DNA from: Candidatus Methanomethylicus mesodigestus
GTDB taxonomy: Archaea; Thermoproteota; Methanomethylicia; Methanomethylicales; Methanomethylicaceae
Length of the DNA stretch: 38,047 nucleotides
Assembly (NCBI GenBank): GCA_001717005.1
Contig: MAGS01000082.1
Location: 1 to 38,047, forward strand
Reading direction: 5' to 3'
Shown piece after piece: positions 34,686 to 38,047 of the stretch. The position numbers and the translations under genes are program-made. How positions within the stretch are numbered: position 1 is the stretch's first letter; every line of letters starts with the position of its first letter. The notes under the pieces are model-generated. The model ran no database searches and was not told the DNA's origin. It saw only the letters and a list, made by a program, of their open reading frames with translations.

Positions 34686-35465
34686 TTAACCCTGCTTTGG
34701 TCTGTGCCATAGCCTCGAGATCAAGACCGTGCCCATCAGGGCAACTGCGATAATGGCTATGCCGGCCTCGAGCGCCATCAGGATGGCGGGATGCGGCATC
34801 TGCTTTACGGCTATGCCCGCAAGAGCCCAAATTATTACGAGCTCATACCCTATGTCCTTTCTTGTGACTATAACCGCCATCGCTATCAATAGCGCGACAG
34901 CCGTGATGAGAAGGGCCCATGTTTCGGCCGCTATTCCCAATCCGCCCCAATTCAATGCGACCAAAGTTACGGCTACGTCAGCAATCGTCGCAATGGTGAT
35001 CCAGCCTAGGTAAACGCTGAATGGAAGATGCACCGCCAGCCTCTCGCGCACCGGCGCCTGCTCCCTGCCAACATTCAGGCGCAGATAGATTGTGATCAGG
35101 CTTATCAGAAGCAGGAATATCAATCCCACAGAGACGACGAGCTGCCCGTACTGCCAGCAGAATATCCATGCTATGTTCATGATGCTGCTTACCACAAAGA
35201 GCCAGCCGATCTTCCTTTGGAAACCATTTCCATTCTGGCTCGGCAGCGCTTGGTAGACAACGAAGATGCCAAGCAGCAGATAGATCACCCCCCAGATGGC
35301 AAACGTATAGCCCGCCGGGGTGATGAGCGTAGGGTACGCGTCAGAGACCTCGGCCGTGTTCACGCCGCCAATGAGCTTGGTGCTGCCCGCGATGCCATTT
35401 ATCACGAGGGTCAATATGAATGCCGCCAGATTGCTCGCTTTCAACAACCAAGAATCTGTCGCCAC
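34686..35465 (-). CDS. TspO/MBR-family-like (tryptophan-rich sensory) membrane protein
   Basis: The 259-residue protein has about seven or eight membrane helices. It contains the conserved block DAYPTLITPAGYTFAIWGVIYLLLG (residues about 42-66), followed by ASSIMNIAWIFCWQ-like and VSVGLIFLLLISLITIY segments. This matches the long 'tryptophan-rich sensory protein' relatives of TspO, whose ligands (porphyrins, lipids) and roles vary. Base composition is visibly lower in GC than in the neighbouring aIF5A-SRP54 region, hinting at acquisition. It starts at GTG 35465 after a very strong GGGGGAGGTTA ribosome site. A TATA box AATTTTTATACC (minus strand, 35509-35520) lies about 45-55 bp upstream. Confidence 0.78.
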   Translation of the reverse strand: MATDSWLLKASNLAAFILTLVINGIAGSTKLIGGVNTAEVSDAYPTLITPAGYTFAIWGVIYLLLGIFVVYQALPSQNGNGFQRKIGWLFVVSSIMNIAWIFCWQYGQLVVSVGLIFLLLISLITIYLRLNVGREQAPVRERLAVHLPFSVYLGWITIATIADVAVTLVALNWGGLGIAAETWALLITAVALLIAMAVIVTRKDIGYELVIIWALAGIAVKQMPHPAILMALEAGIAIIAVALMGTVLISRLWHRPKQG

Positions 35466-35508
35466 AATTAACCTCCCCCAAAAGTTCCTATGTACCTATG
35501 CTGACCGC

Positions 35509-35630
35509 GGTATAAAAATTCTATGAGCTGGAATGATCTCCCCCTTCCTGACCTCGAGCCTCTACCGATTTGCCTCCTTGGATTTCGATTGCTGCCCCCT
35601 CGAGCCGGATGCGATAACCCTTTAATACAA
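35509..35630. promoter_or_regulatory. Divergent promoters of the TspO-like and transglutaminase-like genes
   Basis: The 0.2 kb between these divergent genes holds a minus-strand TATA (AATTTTTATACC, 35509-35520) and a plus-strand TATA (TTTAATACAA, 35621-35630). The plus-strand box predicts a transcript start near 35648-35652. I see no other gene in the interval. Confidence 0.5.
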
Positions 35631-35809
35631 TCTGAAGGCAAGCATGATTTGTGGCGATTTCAATGAGTGATAGTGGAGTCTATGCCCCACCGCCGCCCCC
35701 GCCGCCAAAGGGCAGGGACATGGCGAAGCTAGCGCTGGTGGGGGCCGTGGTTTTCCTGATGGTAATAACAGGGGTCGTCTACTTGCAGCTTAGTGGGCAG
35801 GTCACTAGC

Positions 35810-35836
35810 CTGCAGGGCTCATACAACGCCCTCAAC
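35810..35836 (+). repeat. 27-bp direct repeat, copy 1
   Basis: This 27-base unit encoding LQGSYNALN is identical to 35935-35961. It is part of the heptad-repeat region. The copies are 125 bp apart; 126 bp would equal exactly six heptads. Confidence 0.9.
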
Positions 35837-35934
35837 GCTAATTATGCCGACCTGCAGGGTGACTTTTTGACGCTGAACCAGAGCTACACGTGCTGCAGGG
35901 ATCGTACAGCTCGCTAACGGCGAACTATAACTCC

Positions 35935-35961
35935 CTGCAGGGCTCATACAACGCCCTCAAC
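35935..35961 (+). repeat. 27-bp direct repeat, copy 2
   Basis: Identical to 35810-35836 but in a different reading frame relative to it because of the one-base shift between them. Recombination between the copies could change the coiled-coil length. Confidence 0.9.
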
Positions 35962-36883
35962 TCCAACTTCTTGAGCCTCCAAGGCGCATACGGTGCGCTC
36001 AACAGTAGCTATCAGGGCCTGCAAGCGCAGTACGCGAACCTGAGTGGCAGGTACAGCGCGCTCGCGTCGGAGTATGACACGCTGGCGACGGAGTACGAGA
36101 TAGTGACGACGCTACACGTCGGCACCTCGATGGAGACCTACTTCGATTACGTCAGGGCGAACGTCATAACTCTTGGCGGCCAACCGCTTGGAGAGGAGGA
36201 ATGGGCAAACTACCCTGACTACTATGAGGACAGCTGCAAGATGGCCGCCTACTTTGCCGCGCATGACGCAGGGCAGCTCTACTGGCCCTCGATGGAGGAC
36301 GAATCCGGATACTACGAGGCGACTGGAGAGTACTCCTACGAGACTGCGGTGGCAATGGTCGACTACGCGCTGGAGGTCGCCGGCGTGAACAGCTGGGACT
36401 CGGACGTCGTCAAGATCGACAAGATACTCGCGTTCATGGATGCGAGGGTGGAGTATGAGACGCGGCTCATCGACCACATGTGGTTCCCCATCGAAACACT
36501 GTCATTCAGGTCAGGGGACTGCACGAGCTTCTCGATACTGGCTGGCTGCATGTTTGAGCGGGTCGGGATCAAGAGCGCGGTCGGCTTCTTCACAAACGAC
36601 ACTCTAGGCGCACATGCGATGGCCCTCGTGCACATGGACGACCTGGGGCCCTACGGGTACGTCTACTACTCGTCACTCACCGGCTATGGGCTGGCCTCCG
36701 GGACTTGGATTGTCATCGAACCCCAGACCGGCTCGCTGGAGGAGAATTATGAGTATACCGATTGGATCTTGTATTGGGACCTTGTAGCGGCGTCGGAAGT
36801 GAAGTATGGGGCCTAGTGCCCTCCCCACTTTTTTATTGCGCCAAGAATTGTCGCGCTGGAGGCTGTCGTGCGCAACGTGTTTT

Positions 36884-37843: not shown

Positions 37844-38047
37844 ATGTCTGCCATAGAAAAAATATCTGACGCAATACTGTCAGGAGATGCAGCTGAGGCC
37901 GCAGGCGCAACACTGGGCGCAGTAGAGTCCGGCACGAGCCCTTATGACATAATCAGGAGCGGCGTCCTGAAGGCATGGTCTGATTTCTGCATATGGTACG
38001 AACGAGACGAGAAAGAGTCACTGAAGGCGTGGCTTGGCTGCTTCAAT
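37844..38047 (+). CDS. Corrinoid (B12)-binding methyltransferase-associated protein, N-terminal part
   Basis: The first 68 residues are present and the gene runs off the window. The helical sequence IEKISDAILSGDAAEAAG, then VESGTSPYDIIRSGVLKAW, resembles the N-terminal cap domain of corrinoid proteins that serve methylamine, methanol or methylthiol methyltransferases. The continuation with SDFCIWYERDEKESLKAW differs from the commonest subgroup, and the B12-binding His motif lies beyond the window, so the assignment is provisional. No clear ribosome site precedes the ATG; the leader is about 20 bases. Its divergent neighbour is arsM. Confidence 0.5.
   Translation, partial: MSAIEKISDAILSGDAAEAAGATLGAVESGTSPYDIIRSGVLKAWSDFCIWYERDEKESLKAWLGCFN

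Follow-up and report, generated by a model that had tools for sequence, protein, structure and literature searches.

A probable one-base frame slip in an archaeal gene for a predicted stalked, transglutaminase-like surface enzyme

The window, by which we mean the whole 38,047-nucleotide stretch of Candidatus Methanomethylicus mesodigestus DNA that was analysed, very probably carries a recently broken copy of a gene that normally lies in one reading frame and encodes a stalked surface enzyme, the two parts being out of register by a one-base slip. The frameshift itself is ordinary, and the protein family around it is little described. As predicted from the sequences of its members, this family combines a short tail in the cytoplasm and a single transmembrane helix with a straight coiled-coil stalk and a head of transglutaminase fold, and it appears to occur in archaea and in a few MAGs labelled as bacterial. 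The features of the locus, in window coordinates, are as follows.

35663..35917, plus strand: ORF 1, with a Pro-rich cytoplasmic tail, a transmembrane segment, the first heptads and out-of-frame residues to a TAA (ORF list, heptad register)
35890..36816, plus strand: ORF 2, with the remaining stalk, the complete putative catalytic head and a TAG stop (ORF list)
35663..35728, plus strand: Pro-rich N-terminal tail, MSDSGVYAPPPPPPPKGRDMAK (translation)
35729..35788, plus strand: single hydrophobic segment (by eye)
35789..35887, plus strand: coiled-coil heptads in the frame of ORF 1, four full and one cut (heptad register)
35888..35892, plus strand: frame break, register off by one base (heptad register and switch-point scan)
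35893..36102, plus strand: ten more heptads, in the frame of ORF 2 (heptad register, alignment)
35810..35836, plus strand: 27-bp unit, copy 1 (exact repeat)
35935..35961, plus strand: 27-bp unit, copy 2, identical to copy 1 (exact repeat)
35890..35943, plus strand: hairpin whose 9-bp stem pairs 35893-35901 with 35932-35940 and whose foot touches the break (folding)
36109..36813, plus strand: transglutaminase-like head, with Cys at 36520-36522, His at 36613-36615 and Glu at 36718-36720 (profiles, alignment, model)
35133..36714, no strand: stretch of about 1.58 kb missing from the same-genus genome G001 (flank alignment)

ORF 1 starts at ATG 35663, with GTG 35651 as an alternative, and its TAA occupies 35915-35917. 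The frame of ORF 2 is open from 35863 to the TAG at 36814-36816, and the two frames overlap over 35863-35917. Because ORF 2 runs for 308 codons without a further stop, we infer that the break is young. The Pro-rich tail and the one transmembrane segment ahead of the stalk, both named in a preliminary description of this DNA, are evident in the translation of ORF 1; positive residues preceding the hydrophobic segment suggest an N-in topology with the head outside. Pro-rich tails are present also in two of the relatives described below (L043 and L054).

The coiled coil locates the break. Heptads of the form L-x-x-x-Y/F-x-x follow one frame up to 35887 and another from 35893, and 15 of them can be read without any change of base, with Leu at position a in all 15 and Tyr or Phe at position e in 14, the latter being the number originally counted. 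The heptad score is 29, compared with 15 for the best shuffle; it was never equalled when the residues were shuffled 20,000 times. A scan with a heptad profile built from four relatives puts the switch of frame at about 35887-35893 (scores 27.7, 30.6 and 27.7), which bears out the earlier claim of a one-base slip within the coil and agrees with its placement at 35888-35891. There is no homopolymer at this point, the five bases there having no run of like bases. The same L-x-x-x-Y pattern is seen in the unbroken stalks of four relatives (L033, L035, L041 and L038). By arithmetic, at 1.5 Å per residue, a straight helix of 15 heptads (about 105 residues) would be about 16 nm long.

Repeats and secondary structure surround the break. 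The two 27-bp units are identical and lie 125 bp apart, start to start, where six heptads would span 126 bp, exactly as first reported, and 42-bp units are also repeated around the break. The hairpin has a predicted folding energy of −26.8 kcal/mol (z −4.3), and none of 200 shuffles is as stable; three other stretches of the stalk gave z values of −2.3, −1.4 and 0.3. Hairpins are a known kind of site for small deletions.

Several comparisons bear on the identity of the head. In the AlphaFold model of ORF 2 (pLDDT 89.3) a helix at residues 2-91 precedes a mixed head, and in that of the intact relative L035 (pLDDT 90.7) one helix at 5-128 is followed by a similar head. Foldseek matched 4u65 (LapG) and 3isr, each with an E-value of 1.4e-4. 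Its top two rows are chains of axonemal doublet microtubules (9y6s_8G and 9e5c_1m), which we take, from the model, to reflect a shared arrangement of coil plus fold. VIA-align returned 4xz7 (Z 10.2, rmsd 3.1, 143 aligned), 3isr (Z 10.0, rmsd 3.4, 136 aligned) and LapG 4u65 (Z 9.8, rmsd 5.5, 150 aligned), three values that are tied within 1, and a Z below about 13 may carry little weight when a model is rich in helix; rows for human transglutaminase and factor XIII had Z of 7.4-9.7. As modelled, the head is of transglutaminase/papain-like fold, and weak Pfam matches agree, ORF 2 scoring below the cut-offs of both PF01841 (17.5 of 23 bits) and PF04473 (13.7 of 20.5 bits). In a profile search against solved chains the best match was LapG (4u65, E 1.6e-5; 4fgo, E 0.001), and by sequence profile the head is a predicted transglutaminase-fold cysteine-enzyme domain with LapG as its nearest relation. 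The tethered transglutaminase- or papain-like head that the preliminary description had proposed, with its Cys/His/Glu set intact, is thus supported: the putative catalytic residues Cys211, His242 and Glu277 are present in the window protein and conserved in all 23 rows of alignment A2 (the window plus 22 of the 25 named relatives, with L047, L050, L056 and L021 left out), where they belong, with Gln279, to twelve invariant positions.

Relatives were sought at several distances. Seven of 101 genomes (the window's own and relatives of it) match the head at 1e-5, and the family alignment finds 19 genomes at 1e-10 among the 398 searched in the phylum, the own genome being included in both counts. 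Ten of the 19 match only partly, and these (G034, G140, G145, G197, G202, G241, G271, G358, G364 and G392) were left out of the integrity count. Among 23 genomes of the order only the own genome (G000) matches at 1e-20, and a pattern search that used the head protein alone returned 12 stretches, none of them confirmed as a relative. Comparison of the six-row alignment A1 with named genomes yielded 26 loci, one of them, L058 (Mesorhizobium, query residues 174-227, E 1e-5), being set aside because the match was short. By their titles the loci belong to Nitrososphaeria, Thaumarchaeota, Crenarchaeota, Bathyarchaeota, Brockarchaeota, Thermoplasmatota, Hadesarchaea, Euryarchaeota and Woesearchaeota, together with three loci in two bacterial-labelled MAGs (Dehalococcoidia and Patescibacteria) and the Mesorhizobium match that was set aside. 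The nearest relative is that of Nitrososphaeria archaeon DRTY6_bin.115 (L033; 50% identity), which pairs with the window protein in a tree of 23 heads with support of 100/100.

The integrity of the gene was then scored in 26 relatives, namely 25 loci of the A1 scan (without L058) plus L021 of genome G106; the test asked for one open frame with a hydrophobic segment, the Cys motif and an E-P-Q motif followed by no fewer than 22 residues. Nineteen of the 26 hold a transmembrane segment and complete head in one frame, four are broken, and three were left unjudged (L039, whose frame starts 110 bp into its contig with no transmembrane segment seen; L046, cut by a contig end; and L056, with a run of X from N in its stalk). 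Most of the one-frame relatives carry a heptad stalk between transmembrane segment and head. This architecture, at first considered unusual, is thus a trait of the family. Since 19 of the 23 judged relatives have the gene in a single frame, that state is most likely ancestral and the slip in the window derived, in keeping with the original view of a break that is recent or artefactual. Two relatives suggest other ways to head the same enzyme, L037 with an LPGC lipobox-like start and L047 with zinc-ribbon-like Cys motifs before the hydrophobic segment.

Each of the four broken relatives has its own lesion. L033 has an in-frame TAG 23 codons before its end (L033:4039); L034 has a TGA ahead of the head (L034:3283), where its relative L036 has Gly; L053 has a TAA directly after the transmembrane segment, between it and the stalk (L053:2998-3000); and L021 slips frame twice, first in the stalk and then in the head, immediately past the Cys motif. 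The stalk slip of L021 lies nearer the head than that of the window and is the only one among the 23 judged relatives, none of which is broken at the window's heptad. The preliminary description had named, as evidence against its reading, homologues that close at the first stop or begin independently in the second frame. Such homologues were sought; none ends there, and L053 stops after the transmembrane segment. As a control, SRP54 was examined in ten genomes, giving nine matches (none in G087 at 1e-60), of which eight rows are without a stop and one (G371) has one TAA listed and an open frame of 450 aa. Since SRP54 is essential, the control says nothing on whether four broken of 23 is high for a dispensable gene, and no significance is claimed for it.

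That a programmed −1 frameshift, stimulated by the hairpin, lets both ORFs yield a single protein is very improbable on this evidence, given that no shift is needed in 19 of 23 judged relatives. The two frames do overlap, a slip would keep both residue number and heptad register, and the hairpin lies downstream; however, none of the 18 codon pairs in the overlap is a slippery X XXY YYZ pair, and the only near-slippery one (a T-run at 35864-35869) lies 23 nt ahead of the 9-bp stem and would yield DAEPELHV instead of heptads (score 14.0, versus 30.6 at the break). The gene of G106, a distant relative, also changes frame in its stalk, and in the same sense, but at another place; no canonical heptamer lies between the two frames there, and the further slip in its head suggests decay or error. 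Recoding at the break is therefore unlikely, and the device for recoding or phase variation that had been suggested finds no slippery heptamer, no homopolymer and no judged relative (0/23) broken at the same heptad.

We attach a very slight probability to the ORFs being separate genuine genes, one for a small membrane protein and one for a head protein with its own start. Start codons are available in the frame of ORF 2 (GTG 35890, TTG 35971, GTG 36103 and ATG 36130), GTG 36103 is preceded by the four-base Shine-Dalgarno core GGAG, and L053 has its stop between transmembrane segment and stalk; but no five-base Shine-Dalgarno match stands close before any of the four starts (to 36140), a test that is weak because the starts of ORF 1 are also without a match. 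Against two genes there are, further, a head ORF without signal or anchor, heptads cut midway, and the single frame kept in 19 of 23 judged relatives.

A single broken gene being preferred, the same-genus genomes bear on how the break arose. Four genus genomes were searched with the DNA of the locus. In G001 the flanks align at 88-94% up to window position 35132 and from 36715, and the missing stretch between them takes in most of the gene as well as the 5' portion of the membrane-protein gene next to it; what remains of the former is its last 34 codons only, 88% identical. The junction lies at L010:3562-3575 (G001:C83), and a short imperfect match is common to both edges (ATCAATCCCACAGA and ATCGAACCCCAGA), which suits a deletion between short homologies. 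No match to the locus DNA was obtained in G002 (59% complete) or G003 (78% complete), and in G003 a different ORF adjoins aIF5A. Of the two genus genomes with the locus in view, the gene is thus broken in one and deleted in the other.

We lean, if only slightly, towards a frame slip in the cell's own DNA; the loss of the gene in G001 and the hairpin foot at the break both support a true mutation. An error of assembly or consensus, which would leave the gene whole in the cell and confine the slip to the MAG, and which the 42-bp units and the hairpin favour, is somewhat less probable and still a serious contender. The host genome is a scaffolded MAG of 88 contigs (1.43 Mb, 89.55% complete), and an 824-N scaffold gap lies at 38048-38871 of its contig (G000:C81), past the window end and 1.2 kb downstream of the gene, where the 135 bp before the gap (37913-38047) are identical to those after it (38872-39006), an unmerged overlap. 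Repeats and hairpins of the kind found at the break also trouble assemblies, and the head frame is otherwise clean. Against an error, the bases at the break form no run, the loss of the gene in G001 makes real decay in the lineage plausible by itself, and net frame differences between G000 and G001 are few: over 19,466 aligned bases of ORFs picked by length, five ORFs differ in net frame by hand count, two of them at the deletion edge, and most gapped ORFs return to frame (also by hand count). The stalk slip of G106 fits decay or error, yet it is a second stalk slip.

To the left of the gene, on the minus strand, are SRP54, aIF5A and a 259-aa membrane protein (34686-35465) that has no Pfam match at 0.001 and that we take to be TspO-like; to its right, also on the minus strand, is a methyltransferase, presumably an arsenite methyltransferase, for which Pfam gives methyltransferase only. 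Beyond this the window ends within a plus-strand ORF that has a B12-binding match just short of its cut-off (22.2 of 23 bits). Neither gene adjoining the broken one is on its strand, and no partner gene was linked to the locus. Among the other large ORFs of the window, nine of the ten scanned match Pfam and are by name ordinary archaeal core genes.

The host genome also encodes a PylS-type pyrrolysyl-tRNA synthetase (253.5 bits against a cut-off of 178.15; G000:C34:5494-6210), and both ORF 2 and the remnant in G001 end in TAG. Bridging of the break by pyrrolysine is ruled out, ORF 1 ending in TAA and not TAG. A pyrrolysine reading of the in-frame TAG in L033 is not supported either, its genome (G398) having only sub-threshold matches (best 30.1 bits).

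If the predicted topology is correct, the head of the intact protein would stand outside the cell, held about 16 nm off the membrane by the 15 heptads, or approximately at the height of a surface layer. There it may cut or cross-link surface proteins in the manner of LapG, a cutter of adhesins; our reading of the intact protein is a rod-mounted surface protease or transamidase. From the DNA in its present form, ORF 1 would be expected to yield a membrane stub. ORF 2 has neither transmembrane segment nor signal and would yield either nothing or a misplaced head. In this lineage the gene is probably dispensable and in the course of being lost. A bolder reading, to which we give little credence, is that a stalked LapG/transglutaminase-like enzyme of several archaeal phyla has been switched off repeatedly, by independent lesions (the window frameshift, the G001 deletion, the stops of L033, L034 and L053, and the G106 slips), under on-off selection, for example by viruses or neighbours that exploit an exposed enzyme. 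The value of the family lies in the prospect of enzymes set at a fixed height over the archaeal membrane on a Tyr-heptad rod, in hosts that are uncultured lineages with little-known surface biology.

Parts of this architecture have counterparts among known families. Transglut_core (PF01841) and DUF553 (PF04473) each match 21 of the 23 aligned members at E 0.01; when six relatives were scanned against the cut-offs of the two models, L035, L036, L037 and L044 passed both and L049 passed DUF553 only, and L033 matches neither at E 0.01. None of the Pfam models matched spans anchor, stalk and head together. The S-layer protein SlaB of Metallosphaera (NCBIfam NF040788) matches weakly, the match being confined to the heptad stalk (E 2.6e-4, residues 4-63), with 20 bits against an equivalog cut-off of 700. 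SlaB is a membrane-anchored coiled-coil stalk and, to our knowledge, has no catalytic head. No description of the stalked archaeal family was found in the literature searched, which included PMC4359373, PMC13090378 and PMC10318531, a weak negative given that subscription journals lay outside the search.

The closest comparison is with LapG, a periplasmic cysteine protease (BTLCP, peptidase family C93; 4u65, 4fgo). Common to both are the transglutaminase-type fold, a G-D-C nucleophile motif, a His and an acidic third residue, and a location outside the membrane, which for the present head is predicted. The two differ in that LapG is soluble and the present enzyme would sit on a stalk, and in the third residue, which by alignment is Glu277 in 23 of 23 rows of the present family and Asp in LapG, whose triad is given as C-H-D in PMC4359373 and PMC13090378. 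A further difference concerns calcium. The window protein and L033 read D-C-T-S (36517-36528 in the window), with the Asp before the Cys kept and the acid after it missing, whereas the other 21 of 23 rows read D-C-[DE]-D, with acids at both 212 and 213; the calcium site is likely to have been lost in the clade of these two. LapG models match other family members at E 0.01 (NF045674 13 of 23, PF06035 3 of 23), and no LapG or C93 HMM matches the window protein at E 0.1. With Glu for Asp, the calcium-site acids missing and no LapG HMM match, the window protein is not filed as LapG; it may well work like LapG nonetheless.

The nearest analogue in overall design is DvhG of Desulfovibrio vulgaris, which PMC13090378 presents as a LapG-type protease held in the membrane by an N-terminal transmembrane helix. 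Some 180 residues precede its catalytic core, its triad is C-H-D, and it depends on a calcium site (D316/E318, next to C317). Its long spacer is described there as at least partly disordered and is not a coil of Tyr heptads, and its gene lies in an adhesin operon, whereas the present gene has no same-strand neighbour. If our reading is right, the family would be a membrane-held archaeal counterpart of the LapG-type enzymes, with a different third catalytic residue and with one clade that seems to do without the calcium site.
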